Shown here in pieces: positions 10,771 through 44,600 of a stretch of DNA of 64,000 nt. This stretch comes from Gimesia benthica (GTDB taxonomy: Bacteria; Planctomycetota; Planctomycetia; Planctomycetales; Planctomycetaceae). A program made the translations under genes and the position numbers. The DNA lies in NCBI RefSeq assembly GCF_009720525.1, contig NZ_CP043930.1, positions 5,840,001 to 5,904,000 of the forward strand, written 5' to 3'. The notes beneath the pieces were generated by a model, which saw only the letters and a list, made by a program, of their open reading frames with translations, was not told where the DNA came from and ran no database searches. Positions within the stretch are counted from its first letter, which is position 1; each line of letters begins with the position of its first letter.

Positions 10771-12216
10771 ATGACCTGGCCTGAGCTCAGCATTGACGAT
10801 TTTCCGCCGCGACGGGATGACGAACCGTCGTCGCTCCGGCAGGATATTATCGACGAACTCAGCGACCATTTTGCATGTGCTTTAAATCGGGAGCTGTTGA
10901 AAAATCCGAATGAAAAGATCGCCAGACAGCGTGTGTTAAATCAGTTCGGCGATCCAATCAAAATTGCCCGCCAGCTCTGGCTGGAAGCGATGAAGGAGAG
11001 AATCATGTCACAACGTATTCTTGTCGGCGTTTCCGCGGTGATGGCGGTCTGCTGTATTGCCGTGGTGGGGATTGCCTGGTCGATGATGAAACAGAATGAA
11101 AACCTGAATCTGAAAATGCTGGAGCAGTTGACGGCGTTGGCGAATCGACCGCAGCCTGATACAGGGGCGGAAGTCGATCAGCATATTCTGAAACAATTGG
11201 AAAAGTTAAACGAGAGGCAGACCGGTCAGGCGGGGGCAATATCGGATCTATTGAGCCCTATTACATTCGAACTTGTGCAGGAGGGAGCAGGTGGAACGCC
11301 GGCAAGAGGGTTTACAGGAACATTGCTGAAACGCGGTAGTCAGACCGACACGTTCAAGGTTGAGGCAGTCAGTGATGAAACGGGAACACTCAATTTTAAA
11401 CGGCTGCCCTGGGGGCAATATCAGTTATCATTAACGGCTCCCTGGGGAGAGACACTCAAATCAAGAATGATCTCCACGATCCCTGGACGTCCGTATCAGG
11501 ATACGATTGTCTGCCCCGCTCACTCGCCGCCTGAAGTTTCTGTCTCATTTGCAGTAGAAAGACCCAGGCAGAGTGAACAGCAGTCGGACTACCTGCTATG
11601 CGATTTCCGAAACCGGAATTTTTCCGGGGAGCAGGATACATTCAGTCTGGTCACCCCACGAGACGTCAACGGTTCCAACTGGTATTTCTCTCATGACCTG
11701 GCCGATCACCCTGCGCAGGGCGTCTACCTGATTGATTTAAATACGAATCAGGTTATGAATTGCCCACTGGATGAGCAGGGGCTGTTTGTCGATCTGAATC
11801 AGGAACAACTGAAAGCGAATGACTCGGTCAAAATGGCTGAGGGGATATACGGGGATCCTGCCTGTTATCTGTTACAGAAAGAGGACCTGACGAAACTGTC
11901 TGAGCTCAATCTGCTGGACAACTTTGGTGTCGTCTATTTCGATTTCAATAATTCCAACGATATGAGAATTCTGGTCGCCCGCAATGCAGGTTCAAGGATG
12001 CTGATCCGCCCCTTCGGGACGCTGAAAATGGAACCGCAGACAAGAAAGTCGATAGAACAGAGACACGGTATCGTGAAGAACAGCCTGAAAGGAGTCAAGT
12101 TCCCGGATGCGATTCGCTTTGCGGCGTCAGAAGCACAGGCGAACCTGTGGGAAATCACGATCCCCAACCTGTTCCCGATTACTCGGGAATCCGGTTCATT
12201 GAGTAGTGTCCGGTGA
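10771..12216 (+). CDS. Membrane protein with HAAS-like N-terminal domain, copy B
   Basis: 481 residues from ATG 10771, preceded by AGAGGGGAACC; a longer frame from 10735 is unlikely because copy A aligns from this Met. Order: HAAS-like domain (1-75), one membrane helix (about 83-105), a linker of about 60 residues predicted helical (KQLEKLNERQTGQAG), a beta-sandwich (TLNFKRLPWGQYQLSLTAP) and an unrecognised C-terminal region. DNA identity with copy A is very high over about the first 250 bases and then falls sharply. It lies 41 bases after copy A, probably in the same transcript from the PadR promoter. Its 3' end overlaps the convergent multiheme gene by 38 bases. Confidence 0.7.
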   Translation: MTWPELSIDDFPPRRDDEPSSLRQDIIDELSDHFACALNRELLKNPNEKIARQRVLNQFGDPIKIARQLWLEAMKERIMSQRILVGVSAVMAVCCIAVVGIAWSMMKQNENLNLKMLEQLTALANRPQPDTGAEVDQHILKQLEKLNERQTGQAGAISDLLSPITFELVQEGAGGTPARGFTGTLLKRGSQTDTFKVEAVSDETGTLNFKRLPWGQYQLSLTAPWGETLKSRMISTIPGRPYQDTIVCPAHSPPEVSVSFAVERPRQSEQQSDYLLCDFRNRNFSGEQDTFSLVTPRDVNGSNWYFSHDLADHPAQGVYLIDLNTNQVMNCPLDEQGLFVDLNQEQLKANDSVKMAEGIYGDPACYLLQKEDLTKLSELNLLDNFGVVYFDFNNSNDMRILVARNAGSRMLIRPFGTLKMEPQTRKSIEQRHGIVKNSLKGVKFPDAIRFAASEAQANLWEITIPNLFPITRESGSLSSVR

Positions 12217-15200
12217 CTGGGAAGAGTTTTTCGTCTCCGGTGCCGATCTGCTGGCAGTTGACTTCGTAGACGAATTTTTCCTTGAGTTCGTTGACCTTGA
12301 GGCGGACCGTTTTGTGATCGTCGGAGAGGGTGACTCCTTCGACTTCCACTTTGTACCGGCCGCTGTCGGGGCTGGCGTAGCTGCCGCTCCAGACGCGCGT
12401 GTAGCCGGCGATGGTGTAGGCCTCTTTATCGGCGGCTTTTTTCGCATCAACGGGGGAGAAGAATTCGAGTTCAAAGCCGTCGGCAGTCGCACGGAGTTCC
12501 TTGATGCCGTTCGGCAGATTGCCGTTCGGAGTTAGCTTGACGATCGAACCGGTGTTGCGTCCGCCCAGCCAGCCGCTGTCGTGGATGGAACCGACGTAGA
12601 TATCCCCCTGGGGGCTGACGGCGACCGACATCGGTCCGGTGAAGTTGAACTCATCAGGAGGGATATCGGCGCGGGTGAAGTAGTAGGTGGCTCCCTGAAC
12701 GGAGTCGCCGACTTTCTGTTGCGTAAAGCGGATCAGGAAGCGGTTGTTGTATTCGCAGCCCAGTCCATGGTCGAACAGGCTGGCGTAGGAGAACTGCTTC
12801 GGAATACAGGTCAGACCGTTCACACTGCGGGTCCAGGGGTGAGGAACCTGGATCGCGGCACGGGTTTCTTCGAGGTTTTCCTTGTTCCGCAGGTCGGACT
12901 GGCTGGGAACGCCGTACGCTTTGCCGGGGATCAGGAAGTTGATTTCGTTGAAGGTATTCTGCACGCCCTGCTGGTCGGAGATAAAGATTTCATCTTTGGA
13001 GTTGATGGCGAGGCCCGTGGGGTAGCGGAAGGCGTGCCCCAGGACTTCGATGTTGCCGTTATAGGTGATCTTGAGGATCTTGCCCCGCCAGTGAATCTGA
13101 TCGTCGGGGCGTTTCATCTGGGCGTAATCGCTGCCCAGACCGATGTAGAGATTGCCTTTGCTGTCGCGAATACAGCCGGAGGCCCAGTCGTGGTAGTTGT
13201 CGTTGAAGCCCCAACCGGAGGCGACGATGGTCCGTTTGTCGGCGCGACCGTCTCCATCGGTATCGGAAAGCCGGAGGACTTCGGGTTTGTGTGAAACGAT
13301 AATGTCGCTGCCATCCGCGACGATGCCGAACGGAGCGGAGAGGCCTTCTTCGAAGAGGGTCATCTCATCTTCCACGCCGTCGCCGTTGGTGTCTTTCGCG
13401 AGATAGACGTCCCCTTTGAGAGAGGTGAAGATCAGCGTTCCATCGTTGCGCCAGGCCATCGCGGTTGGCATGATGCCCCGATCGAGGGGGAGTCGCACGC
13501 CGTCGAAGCCGGGAGCGCTGGTAACTTTTTCCAGCGTCTGGTTGGGTTCGGGTTTGATTTTGACGTCGAGGCCGTCGACTTTGAGTTCGCAGAGGTAGTT
13601 GAGTGTCAGCGCAACGCGGTCCTGTTTTCCGCCGGTCGCTTTGATATATTCGTGCGAATAATTATCGGAGATGTGCAGCCACTTCTCATCGGGGCGGGTG
13701 AGATCGCTGATGGTCGGGCTGCCGATACTTTTCGAGAAGCGGGGACGACCGACGTAAAGATCATAACCGGTGGGCAGGTTCGTGGCTTTAATGTCCCGTT
13801 GCCAGCCGGATCCCTTGTCCTGTCCGCGGAGCGGCTCGAAGGTTTCGGTGACGGCGACCGTCTGGATCTGGTCACCGATTTTGAAATTGAGTTCGTAGTT
13901 GAGCGTGATCCGGTTACCCTGCGAGTCATAGCTGCGGAGGGTGCCGGCACTGCCGTTTTCGAGATGCGGGTAGACGACCTGCAGCGGTTCCTTGCCGGCT
14001 TTGGCGAGGACGAATTCGAATCCGCGGTTATAGCCGGTGACAATCGGTGTGCCTGCCATGTCCCAGTACCAGCTTTTGCCTTCGGTGCGCTGGCGGGCCA
14101 GATCGCCGAGCGTCCATTGGACAAGCGAGAACTGATCGAGGTCGAACAGCATGTTATGGCCGTTGTCAAAGCCGACTGCAAAGGCGCGGGGCACGTATCC
14201 GCCGCCGGTCTCTTTGGGATTGGTGAAGACATCGCGGACGATCCGTGCGGGCTCGCCGGCAGCGACGGTAAAGAACTGTTCCACGACGGAGGGGTTCGTG
14301 GGCACTTTGAATTGAGGATCATTCAAGCCAAGCCAGATGGCGTCCAGCTGACGGTTGATGTCACCGCCCAGGACTTTGGGGACGCTCTTCTTGAGGGCGG
14401 GCATTTCCATGCCGGGGACGATACGCAGCGGGTTGTGGACCCAGCGGAGGAAGTATTCTTTCCGCATGCGTTTGCCCAGCATGAGCAGGTTCGAACCGCG
14501 GGTTCCCAGGGCCACGTTGCGGGGTTTGTAGTCGCCCAGTTCGTGACAGGAGATACAGCTGAAGCCTTTGGCGCCGGTGATGGTCTGACCGGCGATCAGG
14601 AGTTGTGCACGGTCCTTTTCTAACGATTCGACCATGAATCCGGGCTGCCGGGGGCCATCGTCGGGAACACGGTCGTGCGAGACCAGGTAGCCGAGCAGGG
14701 CCTGTTTGTCGGCCTCGGTATGTTCGAAACGGGGCATGCGAACGCGGAGCCAGGGCATGCGGAGCGTCTTCTGTTGACCGCTGACCGCTTCGGCCAGGGC
14801 TTCATGTTTGAGTTTATCGCCGACTGCAGTCAGGGCGGGGGGAATCATGGCTTCGCTCTGTCCGGCCAGGGCAGGATCGAACTTGGCCATCTGACCGGCG
14901 ATCTGGGTGATGCCTTCGTGCCGGTCCCGTTCGTGACAATAGATGCAGTTCCGCTGTTCGAGAACGTAGCGACCGCGATCGAATTCATTCTCCGGCGAGG
15001 GAGAATTATAGCTGGCGGCGAGATAGGCTTTGACGGCGTCACGATCGATGGTGCGGTAAGCGGGGCGTCCCTGTTTGAGATCGGGTGTTTCGGCCAGGCA
15101 GCTGTTGTTCCAGTTGGTGACCGGTTTGGTGAGATCGGAAATCTGCAGGTTCGGTTTTTCGATGCCGGGGATCGTGTGGCAGGCGGCGCAGCGGGCCTGG

Positions 15201-16407
15201 GCGATCAGTTTCTGACCCGCGGCGATGCTTTGTTTATCGCTGGTCGGTTTTTGGCCCGTGGACAGCTTGGCCTGTTTGAGGGCCGCGAGGGCGTATGCGA
15301 GCTGTCGGCGTTCGTCGGTACTGAGTTTGACGACCGGCATGCGATGATCTTTGTTGAGCTTCGCGGGATCGGAGAGCCAGTTGAAGAGCCAGGTTTCGTT
15401 ACGTTTATCGCCGATGCTGCTCAAGTCGCCGCCACTGAAGGGCTGCTGATTGCCTTTGCCGTCAATGGTGTGGCAGGCCAGACAGCCGACTGAATGCATC
15501 AGGATTTCGCCGGCCCGCTGTTCTTCATCGCGGGTGGGCGCTTTCTTTGTTTTTTATCTTTCTTCGGAGCCGGAATCTTTTTCAGCGACGCGTTTTTCGC
15601 ATTCGCATAAAGATAGGCGGCGATGGATTCGGCTTCTTGCTGGTTGAAGCCGAAGAAAGGCATTTTGGCATGGGCAGCGATGGCATCGTCGTTTTGAATT
15701 TTGCGGACGAGCCATTCGGGATTGAGGGCGGTGGTGACGTGCGTCAGATCGGGGGCAGCGGGGCTGGTGGCCTGACCTGAGCGCTGGTGACAGCGGTTGC
15801 AGCGATGCGCGTCGAAGTGCGTGCGTCCCCGCCAGATCTGTGCGACCTCGGGGCTGCCTGCTTCCCGGTAAAGAATGTTGGACTGAATCGGTTCGAGACC
15901 AAACAGGTTCGAAGACCAGAACAGTTGCAGGCGGGCCTCGGGAGCCGTTTTTTTATAGGAGACCTGCAGTTCGAATTCGCCGAAGTTCTGCTCGTATTTG
16001 GGACCGACAATCCAGCCGGGTGTTTCGCGTTTGCCTTCCAGGACGGTCTTTCCGTCGATTTCAACTTTGACTTCGCCGACGAGGTACGCGGAGAGCTGAT
16101 ATTCGCCGGGTTGCTTGACCAGGATCAGACTGGTCCAGTCAGCAGTGAAGTTTCCATCTGGCAGTTGTGGCAGCGGCGCCTGTTTGCCCCAGTCGAAGGC
16201 GATATCCGCATCGATCCGTTGAATCTCTTTTCCGCCGGCTTTGTAGGTGGCCAGCAACCCGGGCGGGTAGTCGTCTTCTTCGGGATCAATTTCTTCTGCG
16301 ACCAGACGTGTCTGACTGAGCGAGCAGAAAAAGATGAGGGATAGAAATGCCAACAGGGGCAGAATGCCCCTGATCCAGGATGAAGGGATGCGCTGGCTGA
16401 GCTTCAT
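12179..16407 (-). pseudogene. Giant exported multiheme c-type cytochrome/beta-propeller protein, split by a one-base frameshift
   Basis: Two frames, 16407-15499 and the frame ending at 12179, form one gene broken at an A6 run (15550-15555 on the plus strand). One extra A joins them into about 1,409 residues: the downstream frame continues upstream of its first Met as coding-like KAPTRDEEQRAGEIL right up to the run. Order: signal peptide with hydrophobic core LLAFLSLIFFCSLS, a PA14-like beta domain (about 50-190), CNRCH (about 204), a Lys/Pro-rich linker at the break, CLACH (308), CAACH (410), CIYCH (487), CISCH (619), a middle domain, then a propeller related to glucose/sorbosone dehydrogenases (PTAMAWRNDGTLIFTS) and a beta-rich tail. 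Five heme motifs suggest periplasmic electron transfer coupled to sugar oxidation, as proposed for PVC-type heme-binding proteins. Sequencing error is the likeliest cause of the split. Confidence 0.8.
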
Positions 16408-16489
16408 GTTTTCAGATAATTCAATGGGGCAGAGGGTTTGTTAAGAACCCGAATTAAGTCGCGGGTGAAATAAAAAAATCAGCCATTCG

Positions 16490-17083
16490 TTATTGTTCGA
16501 ATGGCTTTTCATCTTTGGCGCTGGCACCGAATGAGGTACGGAGTGCGTCTGCAGCTTCCGCGACAGTTTTGTCGGGACCAGTCAGCTTGAGGAAGTAGTA
16601 CGCTTTCCCTTCAACGGCGAGGATGACACCCAGCATGCGGGAGTTGGGAACAGCTTCGGTTTTACGTAGAATTGGCGGACCGATGGATTTGTTGTAGGTT
16701 CCCGAGATATCAACGAAGACATACTTGCCTTGTTCTGATTCACCCTGAGTGACTTTCGCTTTGCGACCATCGCTGTTGAACTGACCAATCCAGCGGGAGA
16801 CGTTGGCTGCGATACCACCGCCGGTTCCACCGAAGGATGAGATCACCAGCTCAGCAGGTTCTTTGTCCCCTTTGACGGCGGGGATTTCGAACTGAGCCAG
16901 ACGGAGTCGGTTGGATGGTGGTGCATTTTTCCAGTCGGCGGGCACTTTGAGAGTGATGTCGTTGACTTTGACTTCGTTGGTTTTTTCGGAAGTCTCGGCT
17001 GCATCGGCTGTGCAGGCGTAGATCGCCAGACAAATTCCCAGGACGGAATATAACACTCTGCGGTAGGTGGTGGGTGAAATCAT
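16490..17083 (-). CDS. Exported protein of unknown function
   Basis: 197 residues with a signal peptide (core VLYSVLGICLAIYACTADAA). The mature part is a single small alpha/beta domain with NDITLKVPADWK, FGGTGGGIAANVSRWIGQF and a C-terminal TGPDKTVAEAADALRTSF segment. This layout, with a W-containing strand and a C-terminal helix that ends near FxASF, resembles exported PsbP/DUF1795-like proteins, but no family can be named with confidence. It is 82 bases upstream of the multiheme gene on the same strand, so the two may be cotranscribed. Confidence 0.75.
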   Translation of the reverse strand: MISPTTYRRVLYSVLGICLAIYACTADAAETSEKTNEVKVNDITLKVPADWKNAPPSNRLRLAQFEIPAVKGDKEPAELVISSFGGTGGGIAANVSRWIGQFNSDGRKAKVTQGESEQGKYVFVDISGTYNKSIGPPILRKTEAVPNSRMLGVILAVEGKAYYFLKLTGPDKTVAEAADALRTSFGASAKDEKPFEQ

Positions 17084-17457
17084 AAAATTCCTCAGATTGA
17101 ATTAAGGAGCTTGAGCTTACGACGTTGTTAATTGTCCCGCATTTCCCGCTGATTTTCAACTCGGCATCGCAAGAAATGGCGGCCGAGCCTGTTTTTTTGA
17201 AATCCTCAGCGATGTTGTGACACGATGTTGCTAAAAATCAACACGGTTGAGTGGTTGTGGCAACTTTGTGGAGGGGAATGCTTGAGGGGGGAGTGAACCG
17301 GCGGTAATGGAATACTATTCAGTATCTGGGGCTGATTTTGTATTCGACTTTTTTTATGTGTAGTACGCGTGAGCTGCGACCTCGTGTTCGCTGCGCTCGG
17401 CCCGAATTGCATTCGGGCCTACCCGGGATTGAAATATTGATATGCATTCGGGCGGGC
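17084..17457. other. Intergenic region with dispersed repeat
   Basis: No gene is seen. It contains repeat copy 2 (17371-17427) and, just after it, a second ATGCATTCGGGCGGG partial copy near 17441-17455, directly at the 3' end of the AAA+ gene. Confidence 0.5.
17371..17427. repeat. Dispersed hairpin repeat, copy 2
   Basis: GTTCGCTGCGCTCGG is followed by CCCGAAT-TGC-ATTCGGG and CCTACCCGG. It matches copy 1 over about 35 bases with few changes, in the same orientation. Confidence 0.7.
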
Positions 17458-18945: not shown

Positions 18946-19014
18946 GTGATTGCTTCCTCTGCAGACTGATGACCTGGGCGTAGTAACGGTATCCCGGCAG
19001 CTTTGGATCAATGT

Positions 19015-20736: not shown

Positions 20737-20808
20737 GTTCCGAATCCGGATGAAGGTCGTAAATGATGTGCGGGTTTCTCTCCTGTTACAATAACGTGAC
20801 CGGCGCAT

Positions 20809-20843
20809 AAAAAAAGTGCAAGGCGGTGAAGCACTTGCACTTT
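20809..20843 (-). terminator. Rho-independent terminator of the Cys/Gly/Tyr-rich protein gene
   Basis: A perfect 10-bp stem AAAGTGCAAG/CTTGCACTTT is followed on the minus strand by seven T. It lies 38 bases after the stop at 20881 and just before polX. On the minus strand the T-tract is followed by ATGCGCC, a sequence also seen after other terminators here. Confidence 0.85.
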
Positions 20844-20880
20844 GTAAAAGTCGGTTGATGTCAGCCGTTATTTGCCGGTG

Positions 20881-25121: not shown

Positions 25122-25147
25122 TTCCACTGGATGATCCTGTTGCGTTC

Positions 25148-25175
25148 AGGCCCGCTCAGCAAGCGGGCCTTTTTT
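25148..25175 (+). terminator. Rho-independent terminator of folE2
   Basis: A perfect 9-bp stem AGGCCCGCT/AGCGGGCCT with a 5-base loop and a run of six T, 26 bases after the folE2 stop. Confidence 0.9.
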
Positions 25176-26240: not shown

Positions 26241-26260
26241 GTTCACTCACTAGTGAATTG

Positions 26261-27148: not shown

Positions 27149-27154
27149 GGGGAA

Positions 27155-30417: not shown

Positions 30418-30501
30418 AATGCTCTCAACGTGTTTTCTGTGTCGTTCAGCAAACCGATGTTGCCACCGGTTTTGATGATAATTGACGGGTATTTCTTATT
30501 G

Positions 30502-31743
30502 TCACTTCTTTCCGAAACAATACAAGGCGCCATTTCGGGATTCTGTGCCGATGATCAGATGTCCCTGGCCAATGGCCGGGGAAGCTGTGATATCGTCTCC
30601 TAAGTTCTTTTTCCAGAGGTTCTTACCATTTTTCAGATCGAACTCATACAGGTTACCATCCGAAGAACCGACGAAGACGCGGTCGCCGACAATTACCGGA
30701 GAACTGTCGACACGTCCCCGTGTCATGAATTTCCAGATGGGTTTTCCGGTTTTGCGTTCGACGCAGTGAACCTGTTTATCGCGGCCCCCGGCGACGACGT
30801 GCGTCTCGGTGATGGCGGCGGAGGAGTGGTAGGGATACTCTTTTTTGGGATCTTTATAACGCCAGTCGACTTTCGAGTCTTTCCAGTCGACGGCGATGAT
30901 CTCGCTGGCATAGGTGCCGACGTAGAGGTCATCTTCCCAGATCGCAGGCGAGGCAATCAGGTAGGTCATCAATGGCATCTGGCTGTGCTGCTTGCCGGTA
31001 TCAATATCGATCACGCGGAGCTGTTCGTCACAGCCGGTGACGAAGGTGAAGTGATCGACAATCGCGGGGGAGCAGTTCACGTAGCCGTCGGTCTCAAATT
31101 TCCAGGCGAGGGAACCATCTTTGACGTTGAGGCAGTAGAGGAAATTATCGTAGCTGCCGAACAGAATTTTATCGCCGGTGATGTTGGCGCTGCTGATGAT
31201 TTCGGCGTCGGTTTTGAAGGTCCAGAGTTGTTTGCCTGTCGCGGGGTGGAGGGCGTGAAAGACGCCGTCTTCATCGCCGATGTAAACACCGTCGGCGGTG
31301 ACCAGGGGCGAGGACTTGAAACCCGGGGCGAATTTTTTCGGGTCGCGATCTTCAATCGAACGATATTTCCAGACCGGCTTTCCGGTTTTGAGTTCGAGGC
31401 ATTCCACGAAGCCGTTGAGGCCGGCCATGTAGACTTTGTCGCCCACGATGGCAGCGGTGGAAGCGATGCCGTCGGACGAGGGGTATTCCCAGAGCAGTTC
31501 GAGTTTCTCGGGGAGCGTGGTTTTCGCGACGCCCTGCTGCAGGTTCCCGTTACGGAACGAGGGCCAGTCTTCCGGGTTGGCCTGTGGCGCAGGAACCGCG
31601 GAGGCATCTGCTTTGGCGGCCGGTTTGTTTTCCGCGGGTTTCTCAGCAGCAGACAGAGACAGACTGAATGCGAACAGACAGAGTGCTGCGGCTGCGATCC
31701 GGGAAGGGAGGTGTTTCGATTGATTTCGCTTTAGTACGCGCAT
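30502..31743 (-). CDS. Exported PQQ-like beta-propeller protein
   Basis: 413 residues with a signal peptide ([20 protein letters not shown]), a Pro/Ala-rich linker, then a seven- or eight-bladed PQQ-type propeller with repeated AxWxxxT/W-docking segments such as [32 protein letters not shown] and [12 protein letters not shown]. It resembles BamB and PQQ-dependent dehydrogenase propellers but shows no catalytic dehydrogenase residues I could recognise, so a scaffold role is as likely. Its ATG 31743 lies inside the end of the Fe-ADH gene (13-base overlap), indicating translational coupling. Confidence 0.85.
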
Positions 31744-32929
31744 TCATACAATTCCCGTAAAGAGGACTGATCGACGGGGCGGGGGTTGAAGTTCCCTGTC
31801 CACTGCCGGGAGGCTTCTTCGGCCAGCTGATCGAACAGGCCGGTGTCGACTTCACATTCAGTGAGTGTGGTCGGGGCTCCGGCTAATGAAACAAGGGACT
31901 GGATGTGTTCGGCCAGCAGACCCGGGCCCGCTGGATCGTGTGGGTCACAGAGACCGATGTCGGATGCGAGCTGCGAGTAATGCTCGCCGACCAGTTCCGC
32001 ATTGAAACGGATTACATGAGGGAGCATGATGCCGATGGCGACGCCGTGTGTGAGACCAAAATGTGCTGAGAGAGGGTTCGCGAGTGCGTGTGTGGCACCG
32101 AGCATCGAATTTTCGATGGCGGCTCCGGCGAAGTGGGCTCCCAGCTGCATATTGCCGCGGGCGGTGAGGTCATCAGGGGTATTGAGAACCTGGGGGAAAC
32201 TATGAGCGAGCAGAGACCAGGCGCGACGGCTGAAGAGTCGCGAGATTTCATTGCGGGGTTTGGTGACGTATGTTTCGAGTGCGTGGCTCAGGGCATCGAT
32301 GCCGGTGACGTGGGTGACCGAGCGGGGCATGGTCAGCGTGAGTTCGGGATCGAGGATGGCGACTCGGCAGGCGGCCTTTTTGTCGCCGCAGGCCATCTTC
32401 ATGTGTGTTTCGGGATGGGCGATGACGGCGAACGACTGGGCTTCACTGCCTGTACCGGCGGTAGTGGGGACTGCGATCAGGGGAGCATTGGTTTCGAGGC
32501 TTTGCCGACTCCCCAGTAGTCTTCCATTTTGCCGCCGTTGGTGAGCAGGAAGTTAATGCCCTTGGCACAATCCATACTGCTGCCGCCTCCGAGGCCGACG
32601 ATCAGATCGATGGGTTGCTGACGGGCGACGGCCAGTCCGCGTTCGACGTCTTCGGTAGTAGGGTTGGCGTGAACGTCGTCGAAGATGGTGATTTTGACGC
32701 CTGCCTGTTCGAGCGAGGCGACGCCGCGGGCTTCGTGTCCGGCTTCCGCGAGACCTTTATCGGTGACCAGCAGCACATGTTTTGCGCCCTGTTCGACGGC
32801 GAGTTCCCCCAACCGGCTCAGAGTTCCCCCACCAAAGACGATTCTGGTGCGGGGCTGATAGTCAAAGGCAGAAAGTGAGGCTCCTTCTCCCTGATCCGTT
32901 TTCAGTTTGGTTGAAGATTTCGAATCCAT
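31731..32929 (-). pseudogene. Iron-containing alcohol dehydrogenase, broken by a one-base frameshift
   Basis: Two frames (32929-32477 and 32402-31731) form a 399-residue Fe-ADH when one C is added to the C4 run at 32480-32483 (plus-strand GGGG). The gap region then reads [19 protein letters not shown], the invariant family block that is otherwise missing. N-terminal part: [14 protein letters not shown] (nucleotide binding). C-terminal part: HALETYVT and [13 protein letters not shown], carrying His metal ligands. It resembles 1,3-propanediol or 4-hydroxybutyrate dehydrogenases and acts in the cytoplasm. It is the first gene of a run through to the halogenase-like gene. Every conserved motif is intact on both sides, which favours a sequencing error over true decay. 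Confidence 0.88.
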
Positions 32930-33892: not shown

Positions 33893-34071
33893 CTGTGAAT
33901 CATTTCTATCTATCAGCGGAGGCTTTCAGCAGAGGAGCTGAGTGAGCAGGGGGCATCACTGAAAGAATCTTTTGTATCGAATGCTCGATAGTCGAGTTTG
34001 TTTGTTGAGTTACTGCTGTCAAAGAGTTACAAAACGATTTGACCTTTTCCCTAGTATATCCTGCTGGCTGT

Positions 34072-36401
34072 ATGAGTAAACCGAAGCAACAGAGCCTGTT
34101 TGAAGATGAAGAGCTCCCCGAAAACCCGATGCCCTGGGAGCGGAATTCACAGAATCTGTATCTGGCACAAATCGTTCTGAATCGACCGGTGGACCGCGTG
34201 TTTCATTACCTGGTGCCGGAGCCGATGCGCCCATTACTCAAGCCCGGACATCGGGTGCAGGTCCCCTTTGGTCGGGGTAATCAACTTTCCCCCGGCTATT
34301 GTGTCGGCGTGGGACCGGCGGATGAAGATCAGCCCAGTGTGCGTCTGAAGTCGGTCGATGCCATTCTGGACAGCCGCCCCTTGTTCAGCGCCAAGATGCT
34401 GAAGCTGACCCGCTGGATTGCCGACCGCTACCTGTGCAGCTGGGGGCAGGTGCTGGACTGTGTGGTTCCTGCCGGTGTCAAGAATCAGGCGGGCACCCGG
34501 ATGATTTCGGTGTTTGAACTGACCGATCCGCGTGCAGTACAGGGGAGAAACATTCCAGAAGAAGTCGAACGGCTGCCGGCCAAACAGCGGGCCGTCTACG
34601 ATACACTCAAATCTGCCGACCAGCCACTGACGATGGATCAAATCATGGCCGCCGCCGGCTGTGGTTCTGGCCCGGTTCAGACTCTGAAAAAGAAGACGTT
34701 GATTCGCAGTCATCAGAAACGGGTACAGCATTTCGAAAATGGCGACGATGCGGCTTACGCACACATCACCAAGCAGGACGATCTGCAACTGAACCGGGAT
34801 CAGCGGATGGCGCTGGATCAGATTCTGTCCGCGATCCGGGGGCAGCGGAGCGAAACGTTCGTCCTGCAGGGCGTGACAGGCAGTGGTAAGACCGAAGTTT
34901 ATATCCAGGCGATCCGCGAAGTCGTCAGTTACGGTCAGCAGGCGATTGTCCTGGTTCCCGAAATCAGTCTGACCCCGCAGGCCATTCAGCGGTTTCGCTC
35001 CCGTTTCGATTCGGTGGCGGTGCTGCACAGTCATTTGAGCGACAGCGACCGTCATTACCACTGGCAGAATATCGCGGCCGGTAAGGTGCAGGTGATTGTG
35101 GGAGCCCGGAGTGCCGTGTTCGCTCCCGCACCACATCTGGGGCTGATCATCATTGATGAAGAGCACGAGACCAGTTTCAAGCAGGAGACAGCGCCCCGTT
35201 ATCATGCCCGCGAAGTGGCACGAAAACGTTCCGAACTTGAGAATGTTCCTTTAATTCTGGGATCGGCGACACCCACGTTGAATTCCTGGTTGCGGGTCAT
35301 TGAGAAGAAAGACACGCTGATCTCGATGCCCAAGCGAGTGAATAATCTGCCAATGCCCGGTGTGAACATCATCGATGTTCGCAATGATGTGCAGGTCAGA
35401 CGAAACGAATCGCTCGGGCGTGTGCTCTTCACGGGTATGCAGCACGCTCTCGAAGCGGGTGGGCAGGTGATTCTGTTCCTGAATCTCCGCGGCTATTCGC
35501 CGGCACTGTGGTGCAAGGGGTGTGGGAACTCTGTGAAATGCCCGCACTGTGAGATCTCACTGACCTGGCATCGGGATAAGAGCCTCGCGGTCTGTCACAG
35601 CTGTGATTTTTCCAGTAAACCGCCAACGCAATGTCCCAGTTGTGGGGCACCGGGACTGCGGTATGTGGGAACGGGACACAACGACTGGAGGAAGAGGTCA
35701 AAGCGAAGTTTCCCAATTACACCTGCAAGCGAATGGACAGCGATACCATGCGGGGTGTCGGCAGTCATGCGAAGGTGCTTAATGCCTTCGCTGCGGGTGA
35801 GGTCGATATCCTGTTGGGAACACAGATGATTGCGAAAGGGCTCGACTTCCCGAACGTAACGCTGGTGGGCGTGATCGACGCGGATACGATGCTGCATCAA
35901 CCCGATCTGTTTGCCTCGGAGCGGACGTTTCAGTTGATTGCGCAGGTCGCCGGACGTACGGGGCGGGGCATGCAGGGGGGACGTGTGTTTGTGCAGACAA
36001 CTTCGCCGGCCGAGCCCGCCATCGTGAAAGCCGCGGAGCATGACTTCCTGGGGTTTGCCCGTCTGGAACTGGGGCACCGTAAAGAGATGCTCGCGCCTCC
36101 TTTTTCGCATTACGCCCGGGTGATTCTGCGTGGTCCCCACGAAGAGCATGTGGAAAAGTTCGCCCGACAGATTGCCGAGATTCTCCATGATGCCGCAGAA
36201 GAACGGAAACTGAGTGTGCAAATTCTGGGCCCGGCCCCGGCGCCGATCATCAGGTTGAAGAAATATTTTCGCTACCACTTCCAGCTGGCTGCGGTGAATG
36301 TGGAAGAGATTCTGCAACTGTGGCGGGAAGTGGATCCCAAACTGCCTCGGGAAAAGGGGATCGAATATATCATCGATGTGGATCCGGTTAACATGCGGTA
36401 A
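34072..36401 (+). pseudogene. priA: Primosomal helicase PriA, broken by a one-base frameshift
   Basis: Two frames cover 776 codons of PriA once one A is added at 35676 (GGGACAC should be GGGAACAC); the joined sequence reads RYVGTGTQRLEEEVKAKF. Seen: N-terminal 3'-end-binding domain (ARIVLNRPVDRVFHY-like start), Walker A GVTGSGKTEVYIQ, DEEH box IIDEEHETSFKQ, zinc region with four CxxC pairs (CKGCG, CPHCE, CHSCD, CPSCG) and helicase motifs ILLGTQMIAKGLDFPNV and VAGRTGRG in the second frame. PriA restarts stalled replication forks and is usually needed for good growth. Loss is unlikely in a free-living cell, so sequence error is the best explanation. ATG 34072 is chosen over the frame start at 34039. 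Confidence 0.9.
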
Positions 36402-36440
36402 CCGCTGGTTCACATTTGAGAACCGTGTGGAAAAGATCCG

Positions 36441-36484
36441 TGTTCCGCAGCGCGAAGCGGCATTCGGAATTGCATTCGGTGGGG
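36441..36484. repeat. Diverged copy of the dispersed hairpin repeat
   Basis: The sequence has TTCCGCAGCGCGAAGCGG followed by CATTCGGAATTGCATTCGGT. It keeps the GAATTGCATTCGG core of the other copies but the flanks and stem differ, so it may be a distant or rearranged copy. It lies between priA and the sorbosone-type gene. Confidence 0.35.
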
Positions 36485-36584
36485 ACAGCAGGTTGAATAG
36501 TATCAGAGGATGCGACGAAGGATCCATTCAGCGGGGGCGAAGACGGGCTCCTGCATCTCTCACAGAAGAAGAGGACTGCTCTGC

Positions 36585-39563
36585 ATGAAGGCCCCTGGAA
36601 AAAAGTCTAATTCCCGAGTCTGGTTAGTCTGGTCACTGGTCCTGACGGGACTCTTTTGCCTGCAGGGACGTCTGCAGGCGCAGGATGCCCAGTACGGGAT
36701 CGAGAAACGGATTCCCTGGACGACTTCAAAGGTGCAGGGGAGCCCCGATCCCGCATTGCCTTACGAAACCGAGCGGGCCTTTCCCCAGTTGAAATTCAAT
36801 CAACCCCTGGTGGTCGCGACCGCGCCAGGTATGAAACGCTTTTTTGTTGCCGAGCGCAAGGGGAAGATCTTTTCCTTCGATTACCAGGATCAGGGGACTT
36901 CCGAAACCGAACTCTTTCTGGATCTCAAGCAACATGTCCCCGAACTGAATGAAATTTACGGGATGGCGTTTCATCCCCGCTTTGAAGAAAACGGATATGT
37001 TTATATCTGCTACGTTTTGAAGCCAGGCCTGCCCGAAGGGACGCGTGTCTCGCGGTTTAAGGTACAGGAGGCGAATCGGCTGCACTGCGATCCGGAATCG
37101 GAAGAGACTTTGATCGAGTGGCTGTCGGGCGGACACAACGGTGGCTGCCTGCGGTTTGGACCGGATGGCTATCTTTATATCTCAACTGGTGATGGCGGGC
37201 CCGCTTCACCGCCGGACATTCATAATGCCGGACAGGATGTGAGCAACCTGCTCTCCTGTGTGCTGCGAATCGACGTCGATCAACGCAGTCAGGATCTGCC
37301 TTATACGATTCCCGCGGATAATCCGTTCGTAAAACTGCCGAACGTGCGGCCTGAAATCTGGGCGTTCGGCTTTCGTAATCCGTGGAAGATGTGCTTCGAC
37401 CCGAAGAGTGGCGATTTATGGGTGGGCGATGTCGGCTGGGAACTGTGGGAACTCGTGTATCGCGTTGAAAAGGGTGGAAACTATGGCTGGAGTATCAAAG
37501 AAGGCCGCCAGCCGGTCAAGCCGGGGAATCAGCTGGGACCGACGCCCATTCTGCCACCCACGATTGCCCATTCGCATCGCGAAGCCCGTTCGATTACAGG
37601 GGGCTACTTTTATGGAGGCACGCGCCTGCCGGATCTGAAAGATACTTACATCTACGGCGACTATTCCACGGGAAAACTCTGGGGGTTGCGTTATGAAAAT
37701 CAGCGGGTCAACTGGCATCAGGAGCTGGCGAACTCGACGTTGAAAGTAACCGCCTTTGCCATCGATGATGCGGGCGAAGTTTACATCGTTGACATTGAAG
37801 GAGGCGCCTTTCATCGGCTGGCACCGATCAAGGAATCCGACCATAATCCGGATTTCCCGACCCGATTGAGCCAGACCGGTTTATTCGAATCAACCGAAAA
37901 ACATCAGGTGGCCGCGGGCGTGATTCCGTACGAAATCAATGCACCTGCCTGGGCTGACTACGCGACCTCAGAACGCTTCATCGCCTTGCCTCCTGATACC
38001 ACGATTGAAGTCGTGCAGAAACGGTTCTGGAATTTCCCCAAAGATACGGTGCTGGTGAAAACCATTTCGCTGGAGACCGAGCGGGGGAATCCGCAGACGG
38101 CCCTGCGGCTCGAAACACAGTTATTACACTTCAACGGGGCTCGCTGGCAGGGATATTCTTACCGCTGGAATGAGGATCAGACCGACGCGACGCTCGTTCC
38201 CTCTGAGGGTGACAGTATCAAGCTGGAGATTACTGATGCGGGGCATCCTGACGGAAAACTGAACTACGAGTGGCGGGTTTCCAGTCGGGCGGAGTGTGCG
38301 GTATGTCATACACCCTACCAGAATTATCTGTCAGTGCTTTCCTTCGAAGAAGCACAACTGAATCGGGAACGCAAATTTGGTGATATCGTCGACAATCAGT
38401 TGCGGGCTCTGGCGCACATCAAGGTGCTGCCTGAATCGGTATGGAATGAATCAAAGGGGACCAGGGCACATTATCTGGTGGATCCACACAACACCGCGGC
38501 AGCGTTGAACCTGCGGGCTCGTTCTTACCTGCATGCGAACTGCAGACACTGTCATCGCAATAACGGCGGAGGCGGATCAACGATTGAACTCGATGCCTCT
38601 TTCGATCTGGAAGCGATGAAAGCGGTAGGAGTGACACCCACCCAGGGGAAGTTTGAGATTCTCGGAGCAGAAGTGATTGCTCCGGGCGATCCATACCGAT
38701 CGGTGTTACTGTATCGCATGAGCAAACTGGGAAAAGGGCGGATGCCGTATTCGGGCTCATCGATTGTTGATGTCGAAGGGACCCGGTTAATTCAGGAATG
38801 GATCGAACGACTGCCTACGCGTCCGCATGAGTTGCAGTTCGAAATTTCGCGACAGCGGAACCGTCAGGTCCACCTGTTGGAGGACGCGGTACAGATTGAA
38901 GACCAGGAGTTTTCCGGACAGAAACTGCAGGAAGTCCTCGAAAATACCAGCGGAGGGCTGCTGCTGTTGAGTGCCCTGGATCGGAAACCGATGTCGGAGG
39001 ACACGCAGAATCAGATCGTACGATTGGCGACGCAGGGGGGGAATCCACTGGTACGCGATCTGTTCGAACGATTTCTGCCTGAGGATCAGCGGGTTAAACG
39101 GCTGGGGCAGAACATCGACCATCGGGCGCTGCTTTCATTGCCGGGCGATTCGCGGGAAGGGAAGCGACTGTTCATGGAGATGGCGGGACTGCAGTGCCGG
39201 AATTGTCATCGTGTGCATCAGCATGGAAAAGAGCTCGGCCCTGACCTGACCCAGATTGGCAAGAAACTTTCACGGCAGGAGCTGCTGGAGAATATTATTG
39301 AACCATCGAAAAAAATCGATGAGAAATATTTTACCTGCGTGGTCGAGCTGCGTTCGGGCAAGGTGGTCAGTGGTCTGCTGGTCCGTAGAGACGATGTGGG
39401 CGTGGTGTTGAAAGATGCCAAAAACGAACTTGTGGAGATCCCGGTTCAGGATGTGGAAACTGTGGTGATGCAGAAGAAATCGTTGATGCCCGATCAGTTG
39501 CTCCGCGACCTGACAGCCGAGCAGGCCGCTCATCTGCTGGCATATCTCGAATCATTGAAATAA
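36585..39563 (+). CDS. Exported glucose/sorbosone dehydrogenase-type propeller with three c-type heme motifs
   Basis: 992 residues with a signal peptide (SLVLTGLFCLQGRLQA). The N-terminal 400 residues are a GSDH-type beta-propeller: MAFHPRFEENGYVYICYV, SGGHNGGCLRFGPDGYLYIS and FGFRNPWKMCFD. A linker domain follows, then heme motifs CAVCH (about 570), CRHCH (652) and CRNCH (870). The last 140 residues match the planctomycete putative heme-binding domain (TIGR02603 type): GKRLFMEMAGLQCRNCHRVH ... GKELGPDLTQIGKKLS. Likely periplasmic sugar or polyol oxidation coupled to cytochromes. ATG 36585 gives the signal peptide; a longer frame is rejected. Confidence 0.88.
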   Translation: MKAPGKKSNSRVWLVWSLVLTGLFCLQGRLQAQDAQYGIEKRIPWTTSKVQGSPDPALPYETERAFPQLKFNQPLVVATAPGMKRFFVAERKGKIFSFDYQDQGTSETELFLDLKQHVPELNEIYGMAFHPRFEENGYVYICYVLKPGLPEGTRVSRFKVQEANRLHCDPESEETLIEWLSGGHNGGCLRFGPDGYLYISTGDGGPASPPDIHNAGQDVSNLLSCVLRIDVDQRSQDLPYTIPADNPFVKLPNVRPEIWAFGFRNPWKMCFDPKSGDLWVGDVGWELWELVYRVEKGGNYGWSIKEGRQPVKPGNQLGPTPILPPTIAHSHREARSITGGYFYGGTRLPDLKDTYIYGDYSTGKLWGLRYENQRVNWHQELANSTLKVTAFAIDDAGEVYIVDIEGGAFHRLAPIKESDHNPDFPTRLSQTGLFESTEKHQVAAGVIPYEINAPAWADYATSERFIALPPDTTIEVVQKRFWNFPKDTVLVKTISLETERGNPQTALRLETQLLHFNGARWQGYSYRWNEDQTDATLVPSEGDSIKLEITDAGHPDGKLNYEWRVSSRAECAVCHTPYQNYLSVLSFEEAQLNRERKFGDIVDNQLRALAHIKVLPESVWNESKGTRAHYLVDPHNTAAALNLRARSYLHANCRHCHRNNGGGGSTIELDASFDLEAMKAVGVTPTQGKFEILGAEVIAPGDPYRSVLLYRMSKLGKGRMPYSGSSIVDVEGTRLIQEWIERLPTRPHELQFEISRQRNRQVHLLEDAVQIEDQEFSGQKLQEVLENTSGGLLLLSALDRKPMSEDTQNQIVRLATQGGNPLVRDLFERFLPEDQRVKRLGQNIDHRALLSLPGDSREGKRLFMEMAGLQCRNCHRVHQHGKELGPDLTQIGKKLSRQELLENIIEPSKKIDEKYFTCVVELRSGKVVSGLLVRRDDVGVVLKDAKNELVEIPVQDVETVVMQKKSLMPDQLLRDLTAEQAAHLLAYLESLK

Positions 39564-39753
39564 CCGGTTCTCGCCCCTCACGAATGCGGTTTCCTGCTGG
39601 AAAACAGTCTGGTCTTTGGGCTGAATATCCTTATAATTGGAATTGACGCTCCTGAGTTCCCACCCAACGTTTGCGCCTCAATCAGACGGAAGAACGAACG
39701 CCTTCCCCGTTCGTCCCGATTCTATAAACCCAGACATAATATTGAGTTGAGAC

Positions 39754-40782
39754 ATGGCAATACAATTTGATTGTCCGTACTGTACTTCCACGTTAAAAGT
39801 TCCCGATGCTTCCGCAGGCAAACAGGGGGATTGCCCCCGTTGCGGCACGAAGCTTGTGATTCCCAATCCATTCGCCATGAGCGAGCAGGCTGCCCCTGCC
39901 GCCCAGGAAACGCAGGCGGTTTCTCAAACGCAGGCCCCCGCTATGGATGCACCGGCTGGAGCATCACAGGAAGCCGCACCACCGGCAGGTGATTCGGTTG
40001 CGGTTCAACAACGACCTTTATCGACGGCGACAGCCCAGTATCTGCGGAAACGACGCAGGTCGAACGTGGGGCCCATTCTACTGATCATTCTCTGCTTCGG
40101 GCTGATGCTCGGCTCAGCCGGCTATTTCTATTACACCTATGGTCCACGGCTGGAAGGGAATCTTGTCGGAGCCCGGCTGAGTCCGGAAGATGCGAGCCTG
40201 GAGCAACTGCAGAAAACATCGGATCTGGGACTGTCTGAGGATGTGATCCAGGCGGTGAATAACAGTTTCAAAGAGACGCCGCGTCGGGTACAGAGCGATC
40301 TGATGGAGATGACGTTCTTTGGTCCGGAACAGGGTGGTTTGAAAGTTCGTCTGAAGCCGGGCGCGAAAACGGAAATCGTTCGCGTCGATTTAACGGGCGA
40401 TCCGGCGCTGCTGGAATACATCAAGCAGCATGGCACGCAACTCGATCAGCCACGTTACACAGAATTGCAGAGTCAGCTCGCGGCTTTTTATACGGACTGG
40501 AATCGCTTCCTGCAGGAAGGCGGACCGATGCCGGACCTGATCAACTATCGAAACACAATCGGGTTGAACTCGTTGATCGGCGGACTGGGTTATCATATGG
40601 AAGCCCGCGTTAATAATCGGGTTTTTCCCTGCGTGCATGATGACTATGACGGGGGGCTGTACTTCCTGGTGCCGAAAGGAACACTGCAGTTCGAAATTCT
40701 GGGGAGCCAGATGGAGAATGGCTGGACGAAGTTCCCTGGCAAATACACGGTCCAGGTGACTCAGGAATACCAGGGGCATTGA
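39754..40782 (+). CDS. Zinc-ribbon single-pass membrane protein
   Basis: 342 residues. The first 45 residues form a zinc ribbon with CPYCTSTLKVPDASAGKQG and CPRCG. An Ala/Gln/Pro-rich linker and a membrane helix (about 108-128, ILLIILCFGLMLGSAGYFYY) follow, then a soluble domain of about 210 residues that I do not recognise. The ribbon-linker-helix plan is frequent in planctomycetes, and the C-terminal domain is presumably outside the cytoplasm. It is convergent with hemW, 11 bases apart. Confidence 0.8.
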   Translation: MAIQFDCPYCTSTLKVPDASAGKQGDCPRCGTKLVIPNPFAMSEQAAPAAQETQAVSQTQAPAMDAPAGASQEAAPPAGDSVAVQQRPLSTATAQYLRKRRRSNVGPILLIILCFGLMLGSAGYFYYTYGPRLEGNLVGARLSPEDASLEQLQKTSDLGLSEDVIQAVNNSFKETPRRVQSDLMEMTFFGPEQGGLKVRLKPGAKTEIVRVDLTGDPALLEYIKQHGTQLDQPRYTELQSQLAAFYTDWNRFLQEGGPMPDLINYRNTIGLNSLIGGLGYHMEARVNNRVFPCVHDDYDGGLYFLVPKGTLQFEILGSQMENGWTKFPGKYTVQVTQEYQGH

Positions 40783-40793
40783 GTCTCGCGTGA

Positions 40794-41927
40794 TCAGAGA
40801 AAATCGACGACTACAGAATCGGCAAGCAGGCAGCCGGACTGGGTGAGCCGCAGGTGGGTTTCGGTCTGTTCCAGTAGTCCCGCAGCGATATTACTCTCAA
40901 TCGCGGATTCCGCCAGTTCCGGAATTGAGAAACCGTAGCGGGACGCGAACTCAGCGAGATCGATGCCAACGCGACGGCGGAGGCCGAAGATGATTGCCTC
41001 GCGGGCGCGGGATTCGGGATCGAGTTCTTCCTGTTCCGCGATCGGAGACTCGCCGGCGGCGACATGCTTGAGCCAGGTAGTGACACTGCGGTGATTCTGG
41101 CGGCGAACACCATTCAGGTAACTGGCTGCACCGGGGCCAAATCCGTAGTAGGGATAACCGGTCCAGTAGACTTCATTGTGGCGACATTCAAACCCCGGGC
41201 GGGCGAAGTTCGAAATCTCGTAATGTTGCAGTCCCCGTGAACCCAGATAGTCCAGGGAAAATTCATACATGCTGCCGGCCAGGTCATCCGCGGGTAAATC
41301 GAAGAGCCCCGACTGCTGGCGACTCCAGAACGAAGTTCCCTTCTCGATGGTCAGGCCGTAGGTCGAGAGGTGGGGAATTCCGAGACCGACGGCATCGGCC
41401 AGGGAGGACTCCCAGTCCGACAGGCTTTGACCAGGGACCGCGAAGATCAGATCGAGGCTGGTATTGGGAATGCGGGCCTGCAGGTTCTGCACGATTTCGA
41501 AGATCTGCTCGGGTTGATGATCCCGCTCCAGGAAGGTGAGTATCTCGGAGTGAAAGGACTGGACGCCGAGGCTGACCCGGTTGACGCCACGCTGGTTGAG
41601 AAAGTCGATTTTCTCAATGCTCAGATTCAGTGGATTGGCTTCAATGCTGAATTCGCAATCGTCCGCCAGACGAAACCGGTCGAAGAGGGCGGAAAAGAGT
41701 CGTCTCAGTTGTTCAATGCTGAGATGAGTGGGAGTGCCCCCTCCCAGAAAGAGGGTCTGCAGTTCGGTGCCCGGTTCGACCGTCGCGAGCTGTTGTTTCA
41801 TGGCAGCCAGATAGTCGTCGATCAGGTGGTCCTTGCGGGCAACGAGCGTAAAGTCACAGTAGCCGCAGCGGTGCTGGCAGAAAGGGACGTGTATGTACGC
41901 AGAGGATGGTGTTTCCGGGTTAGTCAC
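40794..41927 (-). CDS. hemW: HemW-type radical SAM heme chaperone
   Basis: 377 residues from GTG 41927, the normal HemW length. YIHVPFCQHRCGYCDFTLVA contains CxxxCxxCxF, followed by LFLGGGTPTHLS, RVSLGVQSFHSEIL and YGLTIEKGTSF, and HYEISNFARPGFECRHN typical of HemW. It acts in heme delivery to respiratory enzymes rather than in coproporphyrinogen oxidation. The start sits 20 bases after the upstream gene stop; a longer frame that overlaps that gene lacks family sequence and is rejected. Confidence 0.92.
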   Translation of the reverse strand: MTNPETPSSAYIHVPFCQHRCGYCDFTLVARKDHLIDDYLAAMKQQLATVEPGTELQTLFLGGGTPTHLSIEQLRRLFSALFDRFRLADDCEFSIEANPLNLSIEKIDFLNQRGVNRVSLGVQSFHSEILTFLERDHQPEQIFEIVQNLQARIPNTSLDLIFAVPGQSLSDWESSLADAVGLGIPHLSTYGLTIEKGTSFWSRQQSGLFDLPADDLAGSMYEFSLDYLGSRGLQHYEISNFARPGFECRHNEVYWTGYPYYGFGPGAASYLNGVRRQNHRSVTTWLKHVAAGESPIAEQEELDPESRAREAIIFGLRRRVGIDLAEFASRYGFSIPELAESAIESNIAAGLLEQTETHLRLTQSGCLLADSVVVDFL

Positions 41928-41947
41928 AGCAGCAGATCCGCAGGCTG

Positions 41948-43405
41948 TCAGGGTGTCTCTTCGTCTGTGGAAGAGAGAAGTTCGCTGACGGGTGCATCGC
42001 TGAAGCTCAAGGCAGCCAGGACATGAGCCAGCGTCAAAATGGCATCGCAGGTGGGGACGGTTTCCCGAAACCAATGATATCCGCTGTGATCGGCAGCGTA
42101 AACGGCCCTGAGTTGCTGCATCTGAAAATAGCTGTCTGCCAGCGTTCCCCGGTGTGTATGCAGGTTCCAGTCTGCAGGGAGCTCTGTCTGCTGTTCCCGG
42201 CTGATCTGATCGAGCACGAAGACGGCCTCCGACTGTTCGGCGGCCAGGGCCTGCATCAGCAATCGGGTGACGGCGTGATTGGGAAGCAGTTCACCTGTCT
42301 CGCTGAAGAACGCGGTCTGGCGGCTGTCGTCGTCGATCAGCAGACCCAGGTCGCAGTTGTGGGTTTCGAGGTACTGCTGCATTTTGCGGACGTCTGAATC
42401 GTCGGGATCGAGCAGGTTCCGTTTCTGATGTGGAATGTCGACCCAGGAGAGCTGGCAGGGGAGCTTATCGAACAGGGAATCGAGGGTTTCCCGGACCAGT
42501 CTGAGGGAACAGGCGACAGCGATTTTCAAAGGTCGCAGGGCGTGAAAGTGTTTCAGGAACTGGCTGCGGTATGTTTCCATGGGGTGGAACGTACGCTGAG
42601 AACCGGGCTGTCGTGATGCGCGACCGTAACCCTGTTCGGCGATCTCCTGGATGCGTTCGAGGTGGAATCCCCGGGAGACAGGCTGTGACTGTTCAAGTAG
42701 AAATTCGAGTCCGGTACTGGACGGACCACAGTGGGAACCGGTGACCATGATGGCGCCCTGTGCCTGCAGATGCGAGGTGGCATATGCGAGGATTGCAGGC
42801 ACCGTGAGACCCAGATCGATCACCCGGCAGCCGTTTCGGCGAAGTGCGCCTGCAACGCCGGTAATGATGTCTGGTGACGAAGGTCGTTCATCGAACCCAA
42901 TGACAACACAGGGGCCGCGACTCTTTTCGGGCCGAGGTTGTTCCCTGGAGGGAGTACTCGATCTTGGGGAGCGGGCGGTTTTGGAATCCGGGGCTAACCC
43001 TTTCAGCGGGAGGCTCTCCCAGAGCAGGTGCGAGAAGGCGCCGGCGAGGTGAGCGGCCTGTGTGCGGTCGATCTGATTTAGATAAACGCCGCGCACTCCT
43101 TCGGTCGTAAACAGGTCGGGAGTGGTGCCTCGTGCCTGTTGTGTCTGATGCAGGCGTTTAACCGTCTGCGGAGAAAGGTTTCCGGTGATCTGGTTGTGAG
43201 GACAGTCCCGGCACTTGGGATAAAAGGCAGCCAGACGCGAAAGGTGAATCGCTTTGGAGATCGGATATTTCTCGCCGGGGCACTGAAAGAACAGTTCTGC
43301 CTGCTGCAGGAGTTTGGGGAGCGGTGGTTGCGCATGCGCCTGGTGCAGCAGGTGAGAAGACTGGCTCGATGCCTGTTCAAATTGATCTGCCGGATCCTCG
43401 GAAAT
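41948..43405 (-). CDS. Phosphohexomutase-like protein with degenerate active site (start unclear)
   Basis: Coding-like sequence runs from an in-frame TAA at 43429 down to 41948 (up to 492 codons), well beyond the GTG at 43096. No ATG, GTG or TTG is available in frame there; the stated end (ATT 43405) is a placeholder. A TTG at 43434 would fit if one G is missing in the G4 run at 43415-43418, giving 495 residues. The N-terminal 110 residues contain a Cys set (FQCPGEKYP and CRDCPHNQ) and end in LFTTEGVRGVYLN. The rest is phosphomannomutase-like: catalytic-Ser loop TGSHCGPSSTG (normally TASHNP), metal loop IDDDSRQ (normally DGDGDR) and ADHSGYHWF. The usual C-terminal phosphate-binding domain is absent. 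Catalysis is doubtful. Confidence 0.65.
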   Translation of the reverse strand: MSEDPADQFEQASSQSSHLLHQAHAQPPLPKLLQQAELFFQCPGEKYPISKAIHLSRLAAFYPKCRDCPHNQITGNLSPQTVKRLHQTQQARGTTPDLFTTEGVRGVYLNQIDRTQAAHLAGAFSHLLWESLPLKGLAPDSKTARSPRSSTPSREQPRPEKSRGPCVVIGFDERPSSPDIITGVAGALRRNGCRVIDLGLTVPAILAYATSHLQAQGAIMVTGSHCGPSSTGLEFLLEQSQPVSRGFHLERIQEIAEQGYGRASRQPGSQRTFHPMETYRSQFLKHFHALRPLKIAVACSLRLVRETLDSLFDKLPCQLSWVDIPHQKRNLLDPDDSDVRKMQQYLETHNCDLGLLIDDDSRQTAFFSETGELLPNHAVTRLLMQALAAEQSEAVFVLDQISREQQTELPADWNLHTHRGTLADSYFQMQQLRAVYAADHSGYHWFRETVPTCDAILTLAHVLAALSFSDAPVSELLSSTDEETP

Positions 43406-43584
43406 CGGTCTGTTCCCCGCCTGGTTTTACTCAAAATGCAGGAACCGGTGCCGGGGGCACTCGAAATTCGCTGCTAAATGGAGTGTAATAGATTTCGTTA
43501 ATACTCTGGAATGATTTTCAATATTGCCACTCCAGAAGTGTGAATGTATGTGATCCCGCGGTTTCCGGTCAATAAGAGTTAGCG

Positions 43585-44600
43585 ATGCCCCTGCATGTCA
43601 CCGAGTTTCTGTTAAGCCCGAGCAGCACACGCTGGGACCGATTGTGGTCCTCCACGGTGATGATCGGTACATGAAACAGGAAGCGATTCATGCGATCGAG
43701 CCGATTGTGCTCGGAGAGGAAGAAGACACCAGCATCACGCGTTTCGACGGGAAGCGGCTGGAAAAAGAGCTCCCCCCATCCACCCTGTTTGACGAGCTGA
43801 AAACCGTCTCTATGTGGGGCGATCAGCGGCTGGTGATCGTTGATGATGCAGAGAAGTTTGTCTCTGCATTCCGCTCGCGCCTGGAAAAATACCTGGAAGC
43901 ACCTTCGAAGAGTTCGCTGCTGATTCTGGACGTCAAATCGTGGAATAAGTCGACTAAACTCGCCAAGACAGTCGCGAAGATCGGTCTGGATCTGGAATGC
44001 AAGGAGCTCAAGGGGAGCCAACTGGCAAAATGGATTGCAGATACTGCAGAACAGGTCCATCAGAAACAGATTTCGCGAGAAGCTTCGCTGCTGCTGGTCG
44101 AACTCGTGGGAACCCATTGTGGACAGATTCATCAGGAACTCTCCAAGCTCGCCACCTTTGTGGGAGAGGCGGCACGCATTAGTCCAGATGACATTCGCGC
44201 GGTTGTCGGAGGCTGGAAAGCAGAGACGACCTGGGCGATGACCGACGCCGTTCGAGACGGAAATGTCGGAGCAGCTTTGAAATACCTGGATAATCTGCTG
44301 GTGGCCGGCGAGGCGCCACAGAAAATCCTGGGGGGGCTCAACTTCGTTTGGCGCAAGTACTTTAAGGCCACGCAACTGGCGGTGCAGGGGACCCCGTTGA
44401 GACAGGCGCTTAAAGAGTCGGGAGTCTTCCCGCGGGACATCGATTCGTCTGACCGTTACCTGCGAAGACTGACCCGGCAGAGGGCGGAAAAAATCGGTCA
44501 ATGGCTGCTGGACGCCGATTTAAATCTGAAAGGTAACAGCCGCCTGGACCCCCGGCTGGAACTCGAGCAACTGCTGTTTCTGCTCAGTGGCTGTGCCTGA
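43585..44600 (+). pseudogene. holA: DNA polymerase III delta subunit (HolA), broken by a one-base frameshift
   Basis: The main frame from 43644 encodes HolA: VVLHGDDRYMKQEAI, LVIVDDAEKFV, SLLILDVKSWNKSTKLAK, GTHCGQIHQELSKLA and the C-terminal LEQLLFLLSGCA. The real start is ATG 43585 in another frame (MPLHVTEFLL); adding one A at 43614-43615 (TTAAGCCC to TTAAAGCCC) joins them as LLKPEQHTLGPIVVLHGDD, about 338 residues in total. Delta loads the beta clamp and is essential, so the break is almost certainly an error. A GTG start at 43644 would truncate the first beta strand. Confidence 0.85.

Follow-up and report, generated by a model that had tools for sequence, protein, structure and literature searches.

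Single-base deletions splitting four conserved genes in the Gimesia benthica genome sequence as probable residual consensus errors

The DNA analysed here (the window) comprises 64,000 nucleotides of Gimesia benthica (G000:C1:5840001-5904000), whose genome is represented by a single contig of 8,027,492 bases. It carries a multiheme gene and a gene for an iron-containing alcohol dehydrogenase (Fe-ADH) on the reverse strand, priA and holA on the forward strand, and a phosphohexomutase-like gene on the reverse strand (Table 1). The first four genes are each divided at a short homopolymer run. The C-terminal piece of Fe-ADH stays open further upstream of the limit listed, the end portion of the first priA frame past about 35673 is out of frame, and holA is broken near 43617, with the rest of its frame at 43644-44600.

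Table 1. Genes, gene pieces and homopolymer runs in the window (positions of the window; E, E-value).
Feature	Position	Strand	Description
Multiheme gene, C-terminal piece	12179..15499	-	1106 aa; cytochrome c and DUF7133 domains
Multiheme gene, N-terminal piece	15499..16407	-	302 aa; PA14 and cytochrome c domains
Run of six T	15550..15555		one shorter than in G004, G008 and G012
Iron-containing alcohol dehydrogenase, C-terminal piece	31731..32402	-	PF25137, E 3.2e-37
Iron-containing alcohol dehydrogenase, N-terminal piece	32477..32929	-	PF00465, E 5.4e-34
Run of four G	32480..32483		one more base in all five aligned relatives
priA, N-terminal part	34072..35829	+	helicase core, zinc ribbon; TIGR00595 (priA), PF17764, PF18319
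priA, C-terminal part	35631..36401	+	PF18074, PF00271
Run of three G	35673..35675		four G in G004
Phosphohexomutase-like open frame	41948..43426	-	492 codons; PF02878; not broken
holA (DNA polymerase III delta)	43585..44600	+	TIGR01128, E 7.3e-66
Run of three C	43617..43619		four C in G004, G008 and G012

Sixteen Gimesia congeners of G. benthica (G000) served as the comparison set. The congeners aligned at the individual sites were G004, G008 and G012 (about 95-96% identity to G000 over the priA region), G009 (84%) and G007 (74%). For the genus survey of Fe-ADH, priA and holA, the corresponding region was taken from 15 relatives.

An earlier note, made from the letters of the window, had proposed that four, probably five, genes each lack exactly one base. 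Four of these losses were borne out by the alignments; the fifth, at 43415, was not, the aligned congeners showing no difference in length. In the multiheme gene, where the loss had been placed in an A6 run at 15550 (coding strand), all five aligned congeners carry one base more, G009 and G007 included. The gene is an intact frame of 4230 bases in G012, G004 and G008. With the N-terminal piece as query, a match was obtained in 15 of the 16 relatives, and the frame measures 1410-1441 aa in 14 of these 15, compared with 313 aa for the window's own frame. The remaining match (G006:C153:6017-6829) has a frame of just 326 aa and comes from a draft assembly in about 820 contigs.

The break in Fe-ADH, assigned to position 32480, was likewise found where it had been expected, with one additional base in each of the five congeners; the extra base varies among them, and the relatives therefore do not reveal which one it is. 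In all 13 relatives with a match the two pieces form a single open frame. For priA and holA the missing base was confirmed against the same five congeners, and the sites were located more precisely, in the runs given in Table 1 instead of near 35676 and at 43614. Across the priA stretch G004 differs from the window only in the length of one G run, and the other relatives also have substitutions; priA is a single frame in all 15 relatives that have a match, two of them cut by contig ends. At the holA site G009 and G007 are one base longer as well, and the N terminus is intact as expected in all 12 relatives with a match.

Comparison with related genomes, which had been suggested as a check, thus returned whole genes in the relatives, in 14 of 15 cases for the multiheme gene and wherever a match existed for the other three. 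The breaks had also been described as deletions throughout, and these four are in fact the only window-specific single-base coding indels in the window, all of them deletions. Alignment or gene calling might create apparent breaks between frames that are naturally separate genes. That description holds for the fifth site, where the phosphohexomutase-like gene is laid out alike in the relatives; at the other four sites the pieces on both sides match consecutive parts of the expected family, and the relatives have one frame. The alignments, combined with the genus survey of open frames, refute separate genes at these four sites, and as a general explanation an artefact of this kind deserves practically no credence.

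Outside the broken genes, G004, G008, G012 and G009 all have one T more than the window in the run at 55495-55498, which lies immediately upstream of a radical SAM gene. The run is non-coding as judged by the frames of the relatives and is likely to be a further error outside genes. Two private non-coding single-base insertions were observed, one at 7371 in a run of seven A and one at 8854 in a run of three C; the one at 7371 is absent from G009. For the region from about 9.6 to 12.15 kb the syntenic parts of G004, G008, G012 and G009 contain no match; the region has two long adjoining frames, each with a weak match to the HAAS family below the cut-off.

At the fifth site, none of the four relatives aligned there (G004, G008, G009 and G012) shows an indel, and the phosphohexomutase-like frame is open in all 12 relatives with a match. 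In the window it remains open from the first GTG (43096) upstream to a stop at 43429-43427. Between 43097 and 43396 the third codon position accounts for 12 of the 14 differences between the window and G012, for 9 of 11 with G004 and for 9 of 10 with G008, and the protein upstream of the first GTG is conserved. Upstream of the conserved FQCPGE motif, ATG, GTG and TTG are all missing in five of 13 Gimesia genomes (G000, G004, G008, G012 and G002); the other eight have at least one. The first such codon is codon 110 in G000 and codon 201 in three close relatives. A frameshift leading from the TTG at 43434 into the gene was set aside, as G008 does not have that TTG.

The G4 run in which the missing base had been suspected is the end of the purine-rich AGGCGGGG, nine bases before an ATT. 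A block of 24 bases containing AGGCGGGG followed by this ATT is identical in G000, G004, G008, G012 and G009, the last of which is just 84% identical in the neighbouring priA region. Elsewhere in the genus an ATG is found nearby in G007 and G011, and G014 has CTG at the position of the ATG of G007; the start codon of this gene seems to have drifted within the genus. Since there is no indel, the frame is conserved, ATG, GTG and TTG are lacking and AGGCGGGG stands before ATT, a rare start codon appears likelier than a missing base at 43415. On balance we favour initiation on a rare codon in place of a fifth break, with the ATT at 43405-43403 as the likely first candidate and a downstream CTG (TTG in G009) as the second. 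The gene infC starts on the rare codon AUU. The phosphohexomutase-like gene resembles it in having an open, conserved N terminus devoid of ATG, GTG and TTG and an ATT nine bases after AGGCGGGG; it differs in that regulation is not evidenced, the start is predicted from sequence and CTG is available as an alternative. If true, planctomycetes would here offer a small and testable example of translation starting on a rare codon.

The frequency of such breaks in the genome was estimated from a wider sample consisting of the window and four further stretches of G000 of 80 kb each, compared with their counterparts in G012, G004 and G008. An additional stretch at 1.70-1.78 Mb was dropped, as its anchor lay in a region with no good match in these three genomes, and it enters no count. 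The sample comprised 199 aligned chunks with 297,276 bases of G000, set against three relatives of about 96% identity. Private single-base deletions and insertions in coding sequence numbered 12 and 1 in G000, 2 and 0 in G012, 0 and 2 in G004, and 3 and 2 in G008. The sole private coding insertion of G000, at 7,234,438, is located near the 3' end of a frame of 642 bases in the relatives versus 675 in G000. Nine of the 12 coding deletions lie in G or C runs of at least four bases, one in a T run of seven, and two in runs of only two bases, the run length in these two cases being that read in the reference row used.

In non-coding sequence the corresponding numbers of deletions and insertions were 17 and 8 in G000, 13 and 3 in G012, 5 and 2 in G004, and 11 and 15 in G008. 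A non-coding excess of deletions is not special to G000. The bias towards deletions, which had been offered as evidence of error, consequently counts for something in coding sequence (12 versus 1) but is weaker than claimed, as G012 shows 13 versus 3 outside genes.

Under a strict test, which required a frame of at least 300 bases to be disrupted in a single genome and whole in each of the others, 12 broken frames were obtained in G000, all through single-base deletions, compared with 2 in G012, none in G004 and 6 in G008 (binomial P about 0.0012 for G000 versus the relatives). Ten sites are common to this list and to the 12 coding deletions. The two additional cases, a 471-base frame without a Pfam match and a 363-base frame with a longer counterpart of 405 bases in G000, are weak. 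Four strict breaks fall in the window and 2, 3, 2 and 1 in the other stretches, so that all five sampled stretches are affected. This corresponds to a broken frame in about every 25 kb of conserved sequence, or about 320 in 8.03 Mb, with a Poisson range of about 170-570 based on 12 events.

Homopolymer lengths were tabulated only where the other three genomes agreed on the run and had identical flanks, and the table therefore holds fewer events than the indel count. Among G or C runs of at least four bases, 5 of 904 were one base short in G000 and none in G012 (of 900), G004 (of 898) or G008 (of 898). For A or T runs of the same minimum length the values were 3 of 1096 in G000, 2 of 1095 in G012, 2 of 1095 in G004 and 3 of 1097 in G008. 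Only G/C runs contribute to the run-length excess of G000.

Outside the window the broken genes include accD, hisS and tyrS, identified with NCBIfam equivalog models on the intact genes of G012, as well as a gene of the alkaline phosphatase family and one of the Pfam BrkB family. Only one hisS gene in G000 scores above the model cut-off, and it is the one that is split, into frames at 469925-470113 and 470110-471177; the other two matches to the model are weak and are limited to its last quarter. For tRNA-synt_1b two matches were obtained in G000, the broken tyrS (3070757-3071491) and another at 6686870-6687703. The break in hisS is situated near 470,117 and that in tyrS near 3,070,759. The breaks are blind to gene importance, striking the only hisS as well as tyrS, accD, holA and priA.

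The breaks could represent real loss of function, in a lineage or cultured stock that is shedding genes or in a mutator that gains deletions in short runs. In favour of this, the deposited sequence shows them consistently, and replication slippage takes place in short runs. Strains deficient in mismatch repair show homopolymer slippage, with single-base changes in runs, and G000 is like them in the latter respect. It differs in that a search for loss of mismatch repair found the mutS (880 aa) and mutL (669 aa) frames of G000 open and without stops, in that private substitutions are not raised (3510 in G000, compared with 3078 in G012, 3786 in G004 and 4949 in G008), and in that A/T runs show no excess. 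On the G000 branch the 11 broken genes have 23 nonsynonymous and 140 synonymous private changes (ratio 0.16), and 191 other genes have 418 and 2139 (0.20). Relaxed selection on the broken genes was not found in this comparison of 11 with 191 genes, and the ordinary constraint speaks against real loss, although a very recent mutation in culture would leave the ratios unchanged. The targets, among them the only hisS, accD, tyrS and holA, also weigh against it, and we regard genuine gene loss as very improbable.

It might further be supposed that the deletions are real yet harmless, the reading frame being recovered by ribosomal frameshifting, transcriptional slippage or a frameshift suppressor. 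The frame would be restored in the same direction at all four sites of the window, and the run at 15550 is A6 on the coding strand, a known kind of slippage site. Most sites, however, are short G/C runs of differing sequence and do not resemble known slippage signals. A conserved shift site for programmed frameshifting was looked for and none was found, given that each of these genes occupies a single frame in the relatives. The chance that decoding explains the breaks is very slim indeed.

Since a cell lacking histidyl-tRNA synthetase should not be viable, residual errors in the consensus explain the breaks far better than any other reading. The four genes are almost certainly intact in the living organism, the assembly being one base short at each; this rests on comparative sequence evidence. 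Short runs, for the most part of G or C, would have been called too short in the consensus, which would have stayed incompletely corrected, the same residual error presumably recurring throughout the genome. The earlier note had preferred indel errors in the consensus to gene decay, a preference upheld by the private nature of the breaks, their occurrence in all five stretches, the excess in G/C runs, the split hisS and the ordinary purifying selection on the genes concerned. Counting against it, the relatives also show strict breaks, eight in the three genomes, six of them in G008. The pattern is a property of the assembly and not of the organism, and we infer that its cause lies in the sequencing or consensus step.

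Parallels are available for errors of this type. According to PMC12007338, short homopolymer indels are the main class of error in long reads, and deletion errors are tied to runs of 2-8 bases; PMC8812927 states that bacterial assemblies built from long reads only usually retain errors in homopolymer length. The G000 case resembles the long-read indel errors covered in PMC12007338 in that single-base deletions tied to homopolymers split many conserved genes in one assembly and its relatives are spared. It differs from the nanopore example given there, which is richest in A/T runs, in being dominated by G/C runs. A search of the literature on Gimesia together with nanopore and frameshift yielded nothing.

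The breaks hold no new biology; they are a warning against calling broken genes dead. Without a recheck of the reads, pseudogene counts, statements on missing genes and metabolic reconstructions that rely on this assembly would misjudge perhaps a few hundred genes, among them ones that the cell needs.
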